From NCBI GenBank assembly GCA_026003235.1, contig BPGW01000009.1, positions 1 through 64,000 of the forward strand: a DNA stretch of 64,000 nt, given 5' to 3'. The translations under genes and the position numbers were made by a program. This document shows positions 5,137-62,032 of this stretch, in pieces. How positions within the stretch are numbered: the first letter of the stretch is position 1; the number at the start of each line of letters is the position of its first letter. This DNA comes from Bacteroidia bacterium. GTDB lineage: Bacteria > Bacteroidota > Bacteroidia > SpSt-205. The notes beneath the pieces were generated by a model. That model did no database searches and was not told where the DNA came from. It was given only the letters and a program-made list of their open reading frames with translations.

Positions 5137-5766
5137 ATGGCTGCCAGGCTGCAGGTTAAGTTTAGCCTCTTGCTTGGAACAGGGGTTTTGTGGGGTTTTA
5201 TACTCATAGGTTGCCAGCCCAGCGGACCCAGTAAGGCCCCTCCACCCACAGAGGCCCCCTCCTCAGGCGCAAGCCAGCCTTACAGCGAACTCCGAACCCT
5301 GATGGACAGCTTAACCATAGCAAAGCAGCGCACTATCTTGGCCAAAGTTCTCTCTGTGGCAGAAAAGGAAGGATGGGCTGGGGCGGTGCAATATTGTAAC
5401 CTGGTAGCCGATACCCTCACCACCTACCGAGACGCCCGCATCTCTTTGCAGCGAGTAGCCCTGCGCTACCGCAAGCCTAAAAATGCGTTGGCCGATTCGC
5501 TGGACAAAGCCGCCTACAATCACTTCCTCCAGACTCGCTCCCAAGAAAGCCTGATATGGACAGCAGGGGAAGGGGAGGTTCGGTATTACCGCCCGATCTA
5601 TGTAGCGATGTCCCAGTGCCTCAAGTGCCATGGCGCCCCCGCCGACCTGGATGGCCCAGCCCTCGCCAAAATCCGCAAACTCTACCCCGGCGATAAAGCC
5701 ACGGGGTTTGCCCAAGGCGACCTCCGCGGCCTGTGGAAAGCCACCCTCCGTACACCCATACCCTAA
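5137..5766 (+). CDS. DUF3365 (Tll0287-like) c-type haem lipoprotein
   Basis: 209 residues. The N-terminus has a hydrophobic segment and a lipobox-like LIGC, so it is probably a lipoprotein. One CXXCH haem-attachment motif (QCLKCHG, Cys161) lies in the C-terminal half with the arrangement of the DUF3365/Tll0287 family, a periplasmic haem-binding or sensory fold. The protein probably binds haem c covalently in the periplasm; a role in redox sensing or electron transfer is inference. The last ~40 nt of the gene (from 5719) recur, diverged, at the left end of each downstream tandem unit, so this gene's 3' end was one endpoint of the local duplication. Confidence 0.75.
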   Translation: MAARLQVKFSLLLGTGVLWGFILIGCQPSGPSKAPPPTEAPSSGASQPYSELRTLMDSLTIAKQRTILAKVLSVAEKEGWAGAVQYCNLVADTLTTYRDARISLQRVALRYRKPKNALADSLDKAAYNHFLQTRSQESLIWTAGEGEVRYYRPIYVAMSQCLKCHGAPADLDGPALAKIRKLYPGDKATGFAQGDLRGLWKATLRTPIP

Positions 5767-5923
5767 GCCCCTTCTCTCCTACTTACAAAGTAAATGTACT
5801 CAGCAAAGCAGCCTTGCAAGGGGCAGGGAACTTTGATCTCCTCATACCTCAGGGCTTGTGTGTTCTTCACTGGCTTCTGCCCCATCCATAGGCTCTACTC
5901 TGGTAACAGAGTGTGTGCAAGGG
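5767..5923 (+). other. Intergenic stretch, possible decayed duplication remnant
   Basis: No convincing gene is present. Near its right end (about 5893-5906) ctctggtaacag resembles the anticodon-region sequence of the tRNA-Asn fragments that precede the other repeat units (ctctggttaacag). Sequence resembling the DUF3365 3' end starts again at 5924. This would fit a mostly deleted extra copy of the tandem unit, but the similarity is short. Confidence 0.3.
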
Positions 5924-6020
5924 GGCCTCTGCGGCCTATGGAAAGCTAAGGTCCCCCTCACGCCCCCAGCGCCTGAGCGACCGTGCAACCTTACTCCCCC
6001 TCTTATCCGTATATACCCTA

Positions 6021-6500
6021 ATGAACCTTTTACCTTTCAGTCGGCTCTTCGTGAGCGGACTGGCGCTGATGGGCCTACTCTGGGCCCAAAACCCGCAAAT
6101 CAAAAAAGTCCTGGAAAAAGCCGGTCTCAAGTACTCGGTGGACAAAGATGGAGACTTCAAACTTGTCTTTGGACTTGAAAATGATCGGTCTCAGATCGTG
6201 TTTATCACTTCCGAAACCGAGCAGATGGCCGACCAAACCATCGTAGAGCTGTGGTCCCCCGGTTTCCAAGCCGCCGATAACGAAGGGGCAGCGATATGGA
6301 CGGCCCTCTTGGCGGATTCCCAACGAAGGAAAGTCGGAGCTTGGCAAGCCGTAGTCAGCGAGGGGAAAATCATCGCCGTATACAAAGCGAAAATTCCTCT
6401 CTCAAGCCTTACGCCGGATTTCCTCAAGGCTGTCTGTATTGGTGTGGCTTCGGTAGCGGATGAAGTAGAGCAGAAGGTAAGCCAGGAAGACAAATTCTGA
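6021..6500 (+). CDS. Secreted YbjN-like protein, tandem copy 1
   Basis: 159 residues. The signal peptide ends at GLLWAQ. The mature part (KVLEKAGLKYSVDKDGDFKL … LPDFLKAV-type helices … VADEVEQKVSQEDKF) has the alternating helix-strand pattern of the YbjN/type III secretion chaperone-like fold, but no catalytic residues. The frame is open from 5913; I chose the ATG at 6021 because it begins the signal peptide and is conserved in all three copies. The protein is identical to copies 2 and 3. Predicted periplasmic or secreted; function unknown. No TAnnTTTG box lies next to its start. Confidence 0.75.
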   Translation: MNLLPFSRLFVSGLALMGLLWAQNPQIKKVLEKAGLKYSVDKDGDFKLVFGLENDRSQIVFITSETEQMADQTIVELWSPGFQAADNEGAAIWTALLADSQRRKVGAWQAVVSEGKIIAVYKAKIPLSSLTPDFLKAVCIGVASVADEVEQKVSQEDKF

Positions 6501-6524
6501 GAGGAAGCGGCAAGAAAGGAGAAC

Positions 6525-6553
6525 GGGGGCCGGCGCCTGCGGCGCCGGCCCCC
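6525..6553 (+). terminator. GC-rich hairpin, copy 1
   Basis: A perfect 13-bp stem (GGGGGCCGGCGCC) with a 3-nt TGC loop, 24 nt after the stop codon and followed by a short TCTTA. The T-tract is weak, so it may act as an mRNA 3' stabiliser as well as, or instead of, an intrinsic terminator. It could also shield the gene from the convergent tRNA-Asn. Confidence 0.65.
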
Positions 6554-6562
6554 TCTTACATG

Positions 6563-6612
6563 CGCCCGCTGCAGGATTTGGACCTGCAACCCTCGGGTTA
6601 ACAGCCAGATGC
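6563..6612 (-). pseudogene. tRNA-Asn 3' fragment, copy 1
   Basis: About 50 nt matching the 3' part of the intact tRNA-Asn at 7965-8037, through the T arm to the anticodon arm, then joined abruptly to DUF3365-tail sequence. Four substitutions relative to the intact gene, two of them in the T loop, argue that it is not functional. The fragment at 7264-7313 carries the same four. Confidence 0.8.
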
Positions 6613-6721
6613 GACCTCTGCGGCCTGTGGAAAGCTAAGGTCCGTCTCGCACCCCCAGCGCCTCACCAACCCCCTAAGTTACCTTGCAACCTTACTCCCC
6701 CTCTTATCCGTATATACCCTA

Positions 6722-7201
6722 ATGAACCTTTTACCTTTCAGTCGGCTCTTCGTGAGCGGACTGGCGCTGATGGGCCTACTCTGGGCCCAAAACCCGCAAA
6801 TCAAAAAAGTCCTGGAAAAAGCCGGTCTCAAGTACTCGGTGGACAAAGATGGAGACTTCAAACTTGTCTTTGGACTTGAAAATGATCGGTCTCAGATCGT
6901 GTTTATCACTTCCGAAACCGAGCAGATGGCCGACCAAACCATCGTAGAGCTGTGGTCTCCCGGTTTTCAAGCCGCCGATAACGAAGGGGCAGCGATATGG
7001 ACGGCCCTCTTGGCGGATTCCCAACGAAGGAAAGTCGGAGCTTGGCAAGCCGTAGTCAGCGAGGGGAAAATCATCGCCGTATACAAAGCGAAAATTCCTC
7101 TCTCAAGCCTTACGCCGGATTTCCTCAAGGCTGTCTGTATTGGTGTGGCTTCGGTAGCGGATGAAGTAGAGCAGAAGGTAAGCCAGGAAGACAAATTCTG
7201 A
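6722..7201 (+). CDS. Secreted YbjN-like protein, tandem copy 2
   Basis: 159 residues, identical in protein sequence to copies 1 and 3. The nucleotide sequence matches copy 3 and differs from copy 1 by two silent changes near codons 78-81. Same signal peptide (GLLWAQ) and YbjN-like mature part. The upstream ~100 nt carry the DUF3365-tail remnant instead of a recognisable promoter, so expression may depend on sequence duplicated inside the unit. Three complete copies suggest a dosage effect, which is inference. Confidence 0.75.
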   Translation: MNLLPFSRLFVSGLALMGLLWAQNPQIKKVLEKAGLKYSVDKDGDFKLVFGLENDRSQIVFITSETEQMADQTIVELWSPGFQAADNEGAAIWTALLADSQRRKVGAWQAVVSEGKIIAVYKAKIPLSSLTPDFLKAVCIGVASVADEVEQKVSQEDKF

Positions 7202-7225
7202 GAGGAAGCGGCAAGAAAGGAGAAC

Positions 7226-7254
7226 GGGGGCCGGCGCCTGCGGCGCCGGCCCCC
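7226..7254 (+). terminator. GC-rich hairpin, copy 2
   Basis: Same 13-bp stem and TGC loop as at 6525-6553, exactly 701 nt downstream. Confidence 0.65.
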
Positions 7255-7263
7255 TCTTACATG

Positions 7264-7313
7264 CGCCCGCTGCAGGATTTGGACCTGCAACCCTCGGGTT
7301 AACAGCCAGATGC
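7264..7313 (-). pseudogene. tRNA-Asn 3' fragment, copy 2
   Basis: Same 50-nt fragment as at 6563-6612, with the same four differences from the intact tRNA. The divergence therefore predates the latest unit duplication, or the copies have been homogenised. Confidence 0.8.
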
Positions 7314-7422
7314 GACCTCTGCGGCCTGTGGAAAGCTAAGGTCCGTCTCGCACCCCCAGCGCCTCACCAACCCCCTAAGTTACCTTGCAACCTTACTCCC
7401 CCTCTTATCCGTATATACCCTA

Positions 7423-7902
7423 ATGAACCTTTTACCTTTCAGTCGGCTCTTCGTGAGCGGACTGGCGCTGATGGGCCTACTCTGGGCCCAAAACCCGCAA
7501 ATCAAAAAAGTCCTGGAAAAAGCCGGTCTCAAGTACTCGGTGGACAAAGATGGAGACTTCAAACTTGTCTTTGGACTTGAAAATGATCGGTCTCAGATCG
7601 TGTTTATCACTTCCGAAACCGAGCAGATGGCCGACCAAACCATCGTAGAGCTGTGGTCTCCCGGTTTTCAAGCCGCCGATAACGAAGGGGCAGCGATATG
7701 GACGGCCCTCTTGGCGGATTCCCAACGAAGGAAAGTCGGAGCTTGGCAAGCCGTAGTCAGCGAGGGGAAAATCATCGCCGTATACAAAGCGAAAATTCCT
7801 CTCTCAAGCCTTACGCCGGATTTCCTCAAGGCTGTCTGTATTGGTGTGGCTTCGGTAGCGGATGAAGTAGAGCAGAAGGTAAGCCAGGAAGACAAATTCT
7901 GA
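7423..7902 (+). CDS. Secreted YbjN-like protein, tandem copy 3
   Basis: 159 residues, identical to copies 1 and 2, with signal peptide ending in WAQ. This copy is followed by the hairpin and then the complete, convergently oriented tRNA-Asn, so it probably represents the ancestral gene order (gene X, hairpin, tRNA-Asn). Fold assignment to YbjN-like is by pattern only. Confidence 0.75.
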   Translation: MNLLPFSRLFVSGLALMGLLWAQNPQIKKVLEKAGLKYSVDKDGDFKLVFGLENDRSQIVFITSETEQMADQTIVELWSPGFQAADNEGAAIWTALLADSQRRKVGAWQAVVSEGKIIAVYKAKIPLSSLTPDFLKAVCIGVASVADEVEQKVSQEDKF

Positions 7903-7926
7903 GAGGAAGCGGCAAGAAAGGAGAAC

Positions 7927-7955
7927 GGGGGCCGGCGCCTGCGGCGCCGGCCCCC
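7927..7955 (+). terminator. GC-rich hairpin, copy 3
   Basis: Same 13-bp stem as the other two copies, between convergent copy 3 and tRNA-Asn. It could terminate transcription from either side. Confidence 0.65.
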
Positions 7956-7964
7956 TCTTACATG

Positions 7965-8037
7965 CGCCCGCTGCAGGATTCGAACCTGCGACCCTCTGGT
8001 TAACAGCCAGATGCTCTAACCGCTGAGCTAAGCGGGC
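7965..8037 (-). tRNA. tRNA-Asn (GTT)
   Basis: A complete cloverleaf on the minus strand: acceptor GCCCGCT/AGCGGGC, D arm GCTC…GAGC, anticodon loop CTGTTAA (anticodon GTT), T loop TTCGAAT. CCA is not encoded. It is the only intact copy here, with two broken copies of its 3' part in the tandem units to its left. Confidence 0.95.
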
Positions 8038-8102
8038 ACCGCAAAGATAGAGCTTTCTGGCCATACGCAAACCGGTGCCCGATGAGTTTTGTTTGGGCAG
8101 AC

Positions 8103-8792
8103 ATGCATTACTGGATCATCGGTGGAAGCCATGGGATAGGACGGACGCTGGCAGAGAAACTTCTTGCTTCGGGGCATACGGTGGAAGTTTTCTCTCGCAC
8201 ACACGGCGACCTACCGCCCTCGGTGATTTGGCACGCTGGCGATGTGCTAAAAGACCTCCTCCCCGCTCTCCAAGAGCCTCTCCATGGGGTGGTGTACCTG
8301 CCAGGCTCCATTACGCTCAAGCCCTTTGCGCAGCTGAGGGAAAACGATTTTCGTAGCGACTGGGAAATCAACTTTTGGGGCGCGGTTCGGGCTCTTCAGC
8401 ACGCTTACCCCCTCCTGAAAAAGACACCTGGGGCGAGCGTGGTGCTGGTTTCAACTGTCGCCGTACAGACGGGCATGCCCTTTCATGCGAGCATCGCTGC
8501 GGCCAAAGGCGCTGTGGAAGGTCTTGTGCGGAGCCTGGCCGCCGAATGGGCCCCCACCATCCGCGTCAACGCCGTAGCGCCCTCCCTCACCCAGACCCCC
8601 CTCGCCGAAAAGCTCACAAACACCCCCGAAAAAATCCAGCAGTCCGCTCAACGACACCCCCTCCGTCGCATCGGAAACCCCGAAGATGTGGCGGAAGCCA
8701 TTTTCTTCCTCCTCTCCCCAGCCAGTAGCTGGATCACCGGTCAAGTCCTGGCTGTGGATGGAGGCATGAGCAGCCTGCGGCTCTTAGGATAA
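8103..8792 (+). CDS. SDR-family oxidoreductase-like protein lacking the catalytic Tyr
   Basis: About 229 residues. The N-terminal WIIGGSHGIGR matches the TGxxxGxG NAD(P)-binding motif, and the C-terminal ITGQVLAVDGGM matches the SDR consensus. The active-site region reads VLVSTVAVQTGMPFHASIAA then AKGAVEGL: Ser and Lys are present, but the YxxxK Tyr position is Ile (IAAAK). It may be a non-standard SDR or use another residue. I placed the start at 8103 because this puts the Rossmann strand at the N-terminus; an ATG at 8082 is also in frame. Substrate unknown. Confidence 0.75.
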   Translation: MHYWIIGGSHGIGRTLAEKLLASGHTVEVFSRTHGDLPPSVIWHAGDVLKDLLPALQEPLHGVVYLPGSITLKPFAQLRENDFRSDWEINFWGAVRALQHAYPLLKKTPGASVVLVSTVAVQTGMPFHASIAAAKGAVEGLVRSLAAEWAPTIRVNAVAPSLTQTPLAEKLTNTPEKIQQSAQRHPLRRIGNPEDVAEAIFFLLSPASSWITGQVLAVDGGMSSLRLLG

Positions 8793-52631: not shown

Positions 52632-55178
52632 ATGACGAGAAAGTGGCTCGCTACCGCACTCTTCGCTGCGGTCGTATGGGCACAGCAGTATTATCCCTTC
52701 GCCATGGGGCCCTCAGCCGGCGTACTCAACGCCCAGATCAACCCGGCCCTCATCGCCGATAGCCGCTACCGGTTTGACCTGCTTTTTTTGGGCACCAGCC
52801 TCAACCTCACCAACAACTACGTGGGAGTTCGCTCCGAGCTGTGGCGCGACCTCATTAGAGGAGAGCTCAACGACACCGCGGACTTTCGCCGCTACTACCT
52901 GGAAGACGACTACCAAAACCCCTCCCTCAAACAGGTGCGCTTTGAGCAGCAAGTGCTCTTGCCCAGCTTTCTGCTGACATTGGGACGGCGTTCAGCCCTG
53001 GCCTTCAACCTGCGTATGCGCACCCGCTTCAGCCTCAACAACATAGACCACCGCTTGGCCAAACTGGCCTACGAAGAGCTCAAATACCCTCCCTACTGGA
53101 ACTCCTGGATCGAAGGCGGCGATTTGAGTTTTCAGTACGCCACTTACTACGATGTAGCCCTCAGTTATGCTCGGGTGCTGCTCAACACAGGCCAGCACGT
53201 CCTCAAAGCCGGCCTTACCCTCAAGTACTTGCACGGCGTGTATGGTGCTTATTTCTATGTAGATAAGTTTCGGTTCCGCTACCAGTTCTACAACGACGAC
53301 ACCTTAGCTATAGAGCCTGGCTCCCGATTTTACTGGGGGCACTCCGCCAATGTAGACTACAACCTCTACCAGAAAATCGTAGAACGGCCTTTTGACGATC
53401 AGACGCGCTTTTCATTGGGAGGGGATATTGGGGTGGTGTACGAGTTTCGGCCTCGCTACGACCGCTACCTCTATGATATGGATGGGGAAGTGGGCCTGGA
53501 GCGGCGCGATCGGGACCGGTACACGCTTCGGATAGGCGCAGCCGTACAGGACATCCGTTCGCGCATGCGCTTTGCCAAAGGCCCCCTCAGCAACCAGATA
53601 GAAATCACTCCCAACAACCTGGCTGCCGCCGTACATGAATGGAACCTGCGCCCAGTCAAGTTTAGTTCTATCCGGGACTTCAACGATACGCTGCGCCAGC
53701 GCTTCGGGATTGCGGACTCAAACCCTAACTTCATCCTGCAAATGCCGACCCTGTTGAATGTGCAGCTGGACTGGCACATTGCAGGGCCGCTTTACCTCGG
53801 AGGGATGGGCACCTTTCCTTTCGGCAAAAAAGTGGAAACCCTCCGCATGCCCCGCATTTACACGATTTACCCCCGCATAGAGACGCCGTATTTCACCTTG
53901 GGCGTTCCCTTCACGGTCAATGATCTGGGTGAAAGGCTCTGGGGCGCTGCACTCAAGTTAGGCCCTATCGTGATAGGGACGAACAGCCTGGGGTGGATCC
54001 TGGGCGGGCGCACCACCCGTACGGTAGACTTTTACTTCCTCTTCAAGAGCGGCCTGCCGTATCGGCCCCCCCGCGATCGGGACAAGGACGGCGTGTCAGA
54101 CAAAAAAGACCTGTGTTCCTCCACCCCGGGGGTATGGGCCTTCCAGGGTTGTCCCGATTCGGACGGCGATCACATCCCTGACAAAGACGACCTGTGTCCT
54201 CTGGACCCCGGCGTGCCGAAGTTCCAAGGCTGCCCAGACACAGACGGCGATGACATCCCTGACAAGCAAGACACCTGCCCCACCGAAGGTGGGTTAGCTG
54301 AGTTCCAAGGCTGCCCGGACGCCGACAAAGACGGCATTCCCGACAAGGATGACGATTGCCCTCAAGAGGCGGGCCTTTCCCGATTCAAAGGATGCCCTGA
54401 CCGAGACGAAGACGGGATCCCCGACAAAGACGACGCCTGCCCTACCGAGCGGGGCCTGCCAGCTTTCCAAGGATGCCCTGACTCCGACGGCGATGGGATA
54501 GAAGACAAAAAAGACGCTTGCCCGCAGCAGCCAGGCCTCCTGGCCTTCCAAGGGTGCCCAGACACGGACGGCGATGGCCTGCCTGACAAAGAAGACGCTT
54601 GCCCGCAGCAGCCGGGCCCTCAGGCCTTCCAGGGCTGCCCGGACACGGACGGCGATGGCCTGCCTGACAACCAAGACCGGTGCCCCGATAAACCCGGCCC
54701 GCAAGAAAACAAAGGTTGCCCCTACGCCGACCAAGATGGCGACGGCGTGCCGGATAAAGAAGATGACTGCCCCTTCACGCCAGGGCTCAAAACCAACCGA
54801 GGCTGCCCGGAAATTCCAAAAGAGCAAAAACGCATCCTGGACCTGGCTTTCCGCAACCTGGAGTTTGAAACGGGCAAAGCTATCATTCGCGAAAGGTCGC
54901 TCCCTTACCTGGACACCCTCGCTCAGCTTCTGATAGACAACCCCACCTACAAGCTCAAAATCTCTGGTCACACCGACAACCAAGGCGGCCTGGAGTACAA
55001 CATGAAACTCTCTAAGGCCCGCTCCGAAGCGGTGCGCAACTACCTCGTCTCCAGAGGGGTTTCGGCCGATCGCTTCATCGTGGAGTACTTTGGGCCGCTG
55101 CGGCCTATTGCGTCCAACGCTACCCCTCAAGGTCGCGCCAGAAATCGCCGGGTGGAGATGAAGGTGGTCTTTGAGTAG
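52632..55178 (+). CDS. Outer-membrane protein with DUF5723-like barrel, nine TSP3 repeats and OmpA domain
   Basis: 848 residues. The signal peptide ends in AAVVWAQ. The N-terminal ~460 residues look like a DUF5723-type outer-membrane barrel (MGPSAGVLNAQINPALIADS). Residues about 482-726 hold nine calcium-binding thrombospondin type 3 repeats (DTDGDGLPDKEDACPQQPG). The OmpA C-terminal domain (LKISGHTDNQGGLEYNMKLS, then ARSEAVRNYLVSRGV) should bind peptidoglycan. It would anchor the outer membrane to the wall across the periplasm. Terminated by a hairpin at 55203. Confidence 0.87.
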   Translation: MTRKWLATALFAAVVWAQQYYPFAMGPSAGVLNAQINPALIADSRYRFDLLFLGTSLNLTNNYVGVRSELWRDLIRGELNDTADFRRYYLEDDYQNPSLKQVRFEQQVLLPSFLLTLGRRSALAFNLRMRTRFSLNNIDHRLAKLAYEELKYPPYWNSWIEGGDLSFQYATYYDVALSYARVLLNTGQHVLKAGLTLKYLHGVYGAYFYVDKFRFRYQFYNDDTLAIEPGSRFYWGHSANVDYNLYQKIVERPFDDQTRFSLGGDIGVVYEFRPRYDRYLYDMDGEVGLERRDRDRYTLRIGAAVQDIRSRMRFAKGPLSNQIEITPNNLAAAVHEWNLRPVKFSSIRDFNDTLRQRFGIADSNPNFILQMPTLLNVQLDWHIAGPLYLGGMGTFPFGKKVETLRMPRIYTIYPRIETPYFTLGVPFTVNDLGERLWGAALKLGPIVIGTNSLGWILGGRTTRTVDFYFLFKSGLPYRPPRDRDKDGVSDKKDLCSSTPGVWAFQGCPDSDGDHIPDKDDLCPLDPGVPKFQGCPDTDGDDIPDKQDTCPTEGGLAEFQGCPDADKDGIPDKDDDCPQEAGLSRFKGCPDRDEDGIPDKDDACPTERGLPAFQGCPDSDGDGIEDKKDACPQQPGLLAFQGCPDTDGDGLPDKEDACPQQPGPQAFQGCPDTDGDGLPDNQDRCPDKPGPQENKGCPYADQDGDGVPDKEDDCPFTPGLKTNRGCPEIPKEQKRILDLAFRNLEFETGKAIIRERSLPYLDTLAQLLIDNPTYKLKISGHTDNQGGLEYNMKLSKARSEAVRNYLVSRGVSADRFIVEYFGPLRPIASNATPQGRARNRRVEMKVVFE
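54075..54809 (+). repeat. Nine tandem 81-bp units encoding TSP3 repeats
   Basis: Each 27-residue unit has the form DxDGDxIPDKxDxCPxxxG followed by about eight residues ending GCP; the last unit carries two extra residues. The neighbouring units around 54480-54670 are nearly identical at DNA level, so unequal crossing-over could change copy number. Confidence 0.85.
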
Positions 55179-58914: not shown

Positions 58915-61075
<2,161 letters not shown>

Positions 61076-61933
61076 TCACAGCCCAAACTCCCGGCCCTCT
61101 TTGTCCACATAACCCCACTTCCCATCGCGCTTTACCACTGCCTTACCTCGCCGAAAATTCCACACCTCCTCATAGATGCACGGCACCACCTCCTGGCCCT
61201 CCTCATCTACAAAGCCCCACTTCCCTTCGCGTTGCACCGCCGCCATGCCTCCCCCAAAATCCCGCACCTTCTCATACCTGCACGGCACTACTTCCTCGCC
61301 TTGCCTATCCACATAACCCCACTTCCCTTCGCGCTTCACCACCGCCTTACCTTCTTCAAAATCCCGCACCTCTTCGTACCTGCACGGCACTACCTCCCGG
61401 CCTTCCTCATCTACAAAGCCCCACTTCCCCGCTCGCTGCACCGCCGCCCTATACTCCTTAAAATCCCACACTTCCTCATACCTGCACGGCACTACTTCGT
61501 CGCCCTCCCAATCCACAAAACCCCACCTCCCTTCGTACTGCACCGCAGCCTTACCTCCCTCAAAATCCCGTACTTTCTCATACCTGCACGGTACCACCTC
61601 AGCGCCTTCCTTATTTACAAAGCCCCATTTCCCTTCCCGCTTCACCGCTGCCTTACCCCCCGAAAAATCCCGAACGTCCTCATACCTGCACGGCACCACT
61701 TCGTCGCCCTCCCAATCTACAAAACCCCACTTCCCTCCACGCTGCACCGCAGCCTTACCCTCCCAAAAATCTCCCACCTCCTCGTACCTACAGGGCACCA
61801 CCTCAGCGCCTTCCTCATCTACAAAACCCCATTTCCTTTCTCGCTTCACCGCCGCCATAAATACATAAGGATTAACCTCATGAAAATCCCGAACCGCCTC
61901 ATATTTCTCAAGCAGGCTATCCATATCCATCAT
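61076..61933 (-). CDS. WG-repeat protein, cytoplasmic, unknown function
   Basis: 285 residues: a short N-terminal stretch (MMDMDSLLEKYEAVRDFHEV) and eight WG repeats of 34 residues (KWGFVDEEGAEVVPCRYEEV then a variable RDFEGGKAAVKREG), the last truncated. The repeats are very similar at DNA level (102-bp period). No signal peptide. WG (KWG) repeats are probably protein-interaction modules; function unknown. The ATG at 61933 lies 4 nt after a TATTTTTG box, which rejects the longer frame from 61948. Confidence 0.82.
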   Translation of the reverse strand: MMDMDSLLEKYEAVRDFHEVNPYVFMAAVKRERKWGFVDEEGAEVVPCRYEEVGDFWEGKAAVQRGGKWGFVDWEGDEVVPCRYEDVRDFSGGKAAVKREGKWGFVNKEGAEVVPCRYEKVRDFEGGKAAVQYEGRWGFVDWEGDEVVPCRYEEVWDFKEYRAAVQRAGKWGFVDEEGREVVPCRYEEVRDFEEGKAVVKREGKWGYVDRQGEEVVPCRYEKVRDFGGGMAAVQREGKWGFVDEEGQEVVPCIYEEVWNFRRGKAVVKRDGKWGYVDKEGREFGL

Positions 61934-62032
61934 GCAGCAAAAATACACTCTCTCCTTTCTCCTCCCGCTAAAGTCGGTCGGGAAGGCGTATTCAGCAGGA
62001 AAAAAACCTGGGGTAGGGGAGGGGGCTACTGT
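61925..62032 (-). repeat. WG-gene promoter region, copy B
   Basis: The functional counterpart of copy A. Shared blocks include ctcccgctaaagtcggtcgg and tattcagcagg. The box TATTTTTG is at 61938-61945. Confidence 0.8.

Follow-up and report, generated by a model that had tools for sequence, protein, structure and literature searches.

In yeast, CUP1 tandem arrays arose by unequal non-homologous joining, at joints with no more than 3 bp of shared sequence, and were later reshaped by unequal crossing-over (PMC4232551). In bacteria, the patAB tandem duplication of Streptococcus pneumoniae spans 9.2 kb and several genes, and an intact tRNA near its joint drives read-through (PMC4432121). Similarly, duplications of 45-290 kb around serTGA in Pseudomonas fluorescens SBW25 copied the tRNA whole, and three of five isolates showed no obvious endpoint homology (PMC7661048). 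Here we describe a much smaller array within the first 64,000 bases (hereafter, the window) of contig C9 from a hot-spring-type Bacteroidota genome, G000 (11 contigs, 2.06 Mb). Like the CUP1 arrays, it consists of small one-gene units with joints in or beside neighbouring genes and a copy number apparently changed by unequal crossing-over, but it lies on a bacterial chromosome, its joint falls inside a tRNA gene, and it is known from one assembly. As with patAB, a bacterial tandem duplication has put a tRNA gene near the joint; here, however, the unit measures 0.7 kb and the tRNA is cut, convergent and placed behind a hairpin. It also resembles the SBW25 duplications in being a tandem duplication around a tRNA gene, whereas the tRNA is broken here in all copies but the last. 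The locus is a clear but ordinary tandem gene amplification, of a kind already known, whose markers are unusually good. It is a natural case, well supplied with markers, of the way in which tandem arrays start in bacteria and later have their uniformity kept up.

Three gene units end in tRNA-Asn sequence

On the forward strand, an intact Tll0287-like gene (formerly DUF3365; 5137-5766, 209 aa, PF11845 E=2.5e-18) is followed by three units, a tRNA-Asn gene on the reverse strand and an SDR oxidoreductase gene (8082-8792, forward strand). Each unit contains, in order, a DUF3365-like tail, a gene of 159 codons, a strong hairpin of G-C pairs and tRNA-Asn sequence. The three genes (6021-6500, 6722-7201 and 7423-7902, all on the forward strand) stand in register, with start-to-start distances of 701 and 701, and encode identical proteins of 159 aa, just as a first-pass annotation of this DNA had proposed. 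That annotation had also given an exact period of 701 bp, which is true of units 2 and 3: the self-match at lag 701 is exact across 6267-7279 (1013 nt), and these units do not differ anywhere as far as the tRNA. Unit 1 departs from the period at its left edge. Compared with unit 2, its gene carries two synonymous changes only (6257 and 6266), and its left end shows changes at 10 of 69 aligned sites together with a 12-nt gap.

Behind each gene lies a hairpin (6525-6553, 7226-7254 and 7927-7955) with 13 bp that are all G-C. In unit 1 its fold reaches -35.8 kcal/mol (z -4.06) and a terminator scan matches it on the reverse strand; the scan likewise marks the hairpins of units 2 and 3. It probably serves as a terminator separating the gene from the tRNA piece that runs towards it. 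The same hairpin, GGGGGCCGGCGCC-NNN-GGCGCCGGCCCCC, is found again elsewhere in the genome, at the ends of contigs C4 and C3 (L003 and L004) and, at 93%, at C3:224052, and may represent a dispersed terminator type.

The whole tRNA-Asn(GTT) is present only in the last unit, as had been noted before (7964-8037, reverse strand; Rfam tRNA 76.3 bits), and is the sole tRNA-Asn found in the genome. Units 1 and 2 end instead in reverse-strand fragments (6562-6612 and 7263-7313) of 51 nt each, mutually identical and equivalent to tRNA positions 24-74. Each fragment is joined to a DUF3365-tail scar on the forward strand (6611-6671 and 7312-7372). Thus unit 1 comprises the left tail, gene and fragment, unit 2 a scar, gene and fragment, and unit 3 a scar, gene and whole tRNA. 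We directly observe, in other words, head-to-tail units with a novel joint that fuses the two segment ends, tRNA to DUF tail, between units 1 and 2 and between units 2 and 3, with the whole tRNA at the right end of the array and a longer DUF tail at the left.

The joints fuse a derived tRNA piece to a DUF3365 tail

The fusion of tRNA-Asn 3' pieces to a diverged DUF tail had been recognized earlier, and the joints are as described, but the pieces are diverged rather than exact copies. Both differ from the intact tRNA-Asn at four sites (7981, 7983, 7990 and 7997), two of them in the T loop. Because the intact gene is 100% identical to the tRNA-Asn of a same-genus relative, the Bacteroidia bin KatS3mg025 (G006), across the matched 86 nt, the fragments are the derived copies. 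Other tRNA matches within the genome are just 74-81% alike.

The sequence at the joint is AGATGC|GACCTC, where the GC (6611-6612 in the first) is common to the tRNA and the DUF gene. These two shared bases are weak evidence: either end joining or slipped mispairing could have left them, but sharing of this extent is common by chance and so does not prove microhomology. For the DUF3365-like sequence after each fragment, none of 1000 shuffles reached the score of the tail-versus-scar alignment, and nhmmer with DUF genes of the genus detects both scars. They are closest to the DUF tail of their own genome, and a DUF gene of another species was accordingly rejected as their source. The first-pass annotation had derived them from the end of the DUF3365 gene; they are indeed DUF-like, but the donor looks like a decayed second DUF tail to the left of unit 1 and not simply the present gene.

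This decayed tail (5884-5980, forward strand, recognized by nhmmer with DUF orthologues) had not been separated from the scars in the earlier reading, which treated the tails alike. With the genus DUF model, the tail of unit 1 covers model positions 492-570 (about 5884-5954 of the window), and the scars of units 2 and 3 cover 538-574, starting close to the joint. The extension of the DUF match to the left of the joint position in unit 1 was equalled by only 8 of 2000 shuffles. For a tRNA piece left of unit 1, by comparison, the alignment was no better than chance (748 of 2000 shuffles). One candidate tRNA remnant, the CTCTGGTAACAG stretch at about 5898-5909, was rejected: its scores mostly failed to beat those of shuffles (at best, 45 of 1000), and alignment to the DUF gene accounts for it better. 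By its sequence, then, unit 1 still has the left flank it began with, namely a second DUF tail, now decayed and without a recognizable tRNA joint. Such a flank is predicted by tandem duplication and not by insertion at the tRNA.

Further to the left, the stretch between the intact DUF3365 gene and the decayed tail (5767-5883) has no counterpart in any of the 10 other genomes of the genus, in which the DUF gene is present as one copy per relative. No match was found between 5767-5930 and the unit gene, the unit 3' end or its reverse complement, nor between 5767-6020 and the intergenic region of a second named relative, SKW103 (G009). The stretch weakly resembles the 5' end of the DUF gene (30 of 1000 shuffles), which hints that, together with the decayed tail, it may be an internally deleted second DUF gene.

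Relatives retain the unjoined gene order

We compared eleven genomes of the genus, including the present one, with one genome per species. The states seen in the relatives are again direct observations. G006 has zero insert: tRNA-Asn directly adjoins the stop codon of the DUF gene, with the SDR gene next. In G008 the DUF gene lies about 13 nt from tRNA-Asn. In G009, the DUF gene is followed by two YbjN genes, old and diverged paralogues (54% identical to one another), tRNA-Asn and the SDR gene, without tRNA fragments. The SDR gene is thus conserved as right neighbour in G006 and G009, and gyrB lies within about 7 kb of it, on the same side, in both relatives and in the window. Therefore the unjoined ancestral gene order is present in G006, G008 and G009. 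The tRNA-Asn is single copy in 10 of the 11 genomes, the incomplete G001 giving no clear match, and 3' fragments of it are confined to G000. The search for a one-unit ancestor, which the first-pass annotation had in mind, yielded the zero-insert (G006) and two-gene (G009) states; neither a one-unit relative nor one with a tRNA fragment was found among the genomes of the genus.

In a tree of the YbjN proteins, the other paralogues in the genus form a poorly supported (80/70) group to which the G000 gene does not belong, and so neither copy in G009 can be named as its orthologue. Diverged tandem pairs of this gene family are also present in G002, G006 and G009. These show that the family has come to stand in tandem repeatedly within the genus. 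Its members occupy varied sites, most without a tRNA inside the few kb examined. The tandem pair of G006 (L078 9054-10235) directly adjoins tRNA-Gln, the sole other tRNA neighbour seen.

The array edges are older than the core

The array carries an independent clock at either end, namely the dead tRNA piece on the right and the decayed DUF tail on the left. At the right edge, 4 of the 51 sites in the tRNA fragment have changed along a single branch, or 0.078 per site per branch. At the left edge, the DUF tail has 10 changes in 69 sites on two branches (10/138), or 0.072. The core, consisting of synonymous sites and spacers, has 2 changes in 416, about 0.5%. The ratio of edge to core change is 15 (CI 3.5-140, p=5e-6), or 8 with synonymous sites only (p=8e-4), on a clock that is based on 16 changes and assumes that fragment, scar and synonymous sites are neutral. 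The left and right edges thus agree with each other in age and are some 8 to 15 times as old as the core; this mosaic of divergence is observed directly. Since edge change far exceeds core change, the cores have been homogenised and both edges have escaped. The duplication accordingly long predates the ancestor that the present cores share. Of the recent triplication proposed earlier, only the recency of the core identity stands: the joints themselves are old, both edges having changed by about 7% per branch, and homogenisation is needed. The agreement of the two edge clocks is what allows homogenisation to be separated from recent amplification using a single genome. Purifying selection on the tRNA would presumably purge exchanges that import the fragment changes, which fits the sharp stop of homogeneity at the tRNA.

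Taken together, these observations make it highly probable that an old tandem duplication by near-homology-free joining was followed by unequal crossing-over to three units and by homogenisation of the core. In the order of events and the enzymes that we infer, the ancestral segment would have held a single gene, running from the DUF3365 tail through the exported YbjN-like gene and the hairpin to tRNA-Asn. It would have been tandemly duplicated once, when the middle of the tRNA was joined to a DUF3365 tail at about 2 shared bp, so that the joint would have kept a dead tRNA piece of 51 nt and the tRNA would have stayed whole at the other end. The third unit would then have come from unequal crossing-over of the RecA type within the gene, and exchange, by crossover or conversion, would have homogenised the core but not the two outer edges. 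By its sequence, unit 2 is the expected product of one unequal crossover within the gene of a two-unit array. Illegitimate joining at about 2 bp and subsequent unequal crossing-over had already been suggested in the first-pass annotation, and the suggestion is supported by, among other things, the zero-insert relatives and unit 2 as the expected recombinant.

Alternative explanations

An assembly error in the third (or second) unit, which would give the true array a different number of units, is unlikely. Units 2 and 3 are exact throughout, the 1013-nt self-match exceeds the short-read span, and the genome, a bin, is 82% complete and yielded no 16S gene. Against these points, unit 1 can be told apart from units 2 and 3, and the tRNA-DUF joint is real sequence whatever the count, so at least two units must exist. 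In addition, the ends of contigs C4 (L003 946-1895) and C3 (L004 1-954) share a 954-bp overlap, 99.4% identical and interrupted by small gaps, in the manner of unmerged long-read contigs; because a gapped overlap of 954 bp is no k-mer overlap, it suggests a long-read assembly. Three is the likely unit count.

A very recent one-step amplification without homogenisation, in which the tRNA pieces were diverged from the outset or came from another tRNA, would fit the identity in protein of the gene copies. It is improbable, given that the match of the intact tRNA to that of G006 marks the fragment as derived, that the two edges share an age far above that of the core, and that the other tRNA matches in the genome are so much less alike. 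We give equally little credence to a more elaborate idea, namely that the tRNA 3' half is a standing recombination handle: the conserved essential tRNA would fix the right edge while units expand and contract behind it, so that the array would serve as a tRNA-anchored amplifier and the exported chaperone-like protein would vary in copy number in the population.

Finally, the unit could be a small integrated element with the tRNA-Asn 3' part as its attachment site, and the array the result of repeated insertion, an alternative also raised in the first-pass annotation; although the fragments repeat the tRNA 3' part in direct orientation, 701 bp apart start-to-start, as attachment cores would, this reading is largely refuted and very improbable. 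Unit 1 lacks the tRNA piece required at its far end, on the left, where a longer DUF tail stands, and the fragments differ from the tRNA at four sites. Tyrosine recombinases (PF00589) occur only on contigs C6 and C1 and not on C9, in line with the earlier remark that no integrase is present. Neither relatives of the gene nor the joint turned up in scans of viral contigs, and the relatives of the gene lie at varied sites, mostly without a tRNA in the few kb examined.

The amplified gene encodes a probably exported YbjN-like protein

The N-terminal 22-23 residues of the unit protein read as signal-peptide-like and end in WAQ, and the protein is probably exported. Its Pfam matches both lie under the family cut-offs (PF10722, 14.8 bits against 22; PF22551, 19.8 against 27), and 6 of 10 homologues match PF10722 at E<=0.1, the best at 9e-9. 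An AlphaFold model (pLDDT 85.8) retrieved 2plg (5.6e-5), 3kxy (1.6e-4) and 6vu7 (1.2e-3) with Foldseek, and also matches 1jyo. The predicted fold is therefore of the class I T3SS-chaperone/YbjN-like type. In this fold and in the weak PF22551 and PF10722 matches it resembles known YbjN and class I T3SS-chaperone-like proteins, such as AmyR (PMC5398634) and E. coli YbjN (6vu7), but it differs in its signal-peptide-like N terminus and in scoring below the family cut-offs. YbjN proteins are thought to act via protein-protein contact, and a role in secretion is without evidence (PMC5398634). Extra copies might plausibly confer a benefit through dosage of the exported chaperone-like protein.

Other repeats in the window

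The window contains further repeats at a distance from the array. Six copies of an 81-nt repeat at 54222-54707 encode a D-x-D-x-D-rich sequence that appears similar to thrombospondin type 3 repeats. Another six copies, of a 102-nt repeat and 74-80% alike, stand in register at 61072-61881. They are flanked by a 63-nt direct repeat pair (60602-60664 and 61924-61986) whose members are 89% alike and share an identical CTCCCGCTAAAGTCGGTCGGGAAGG end.
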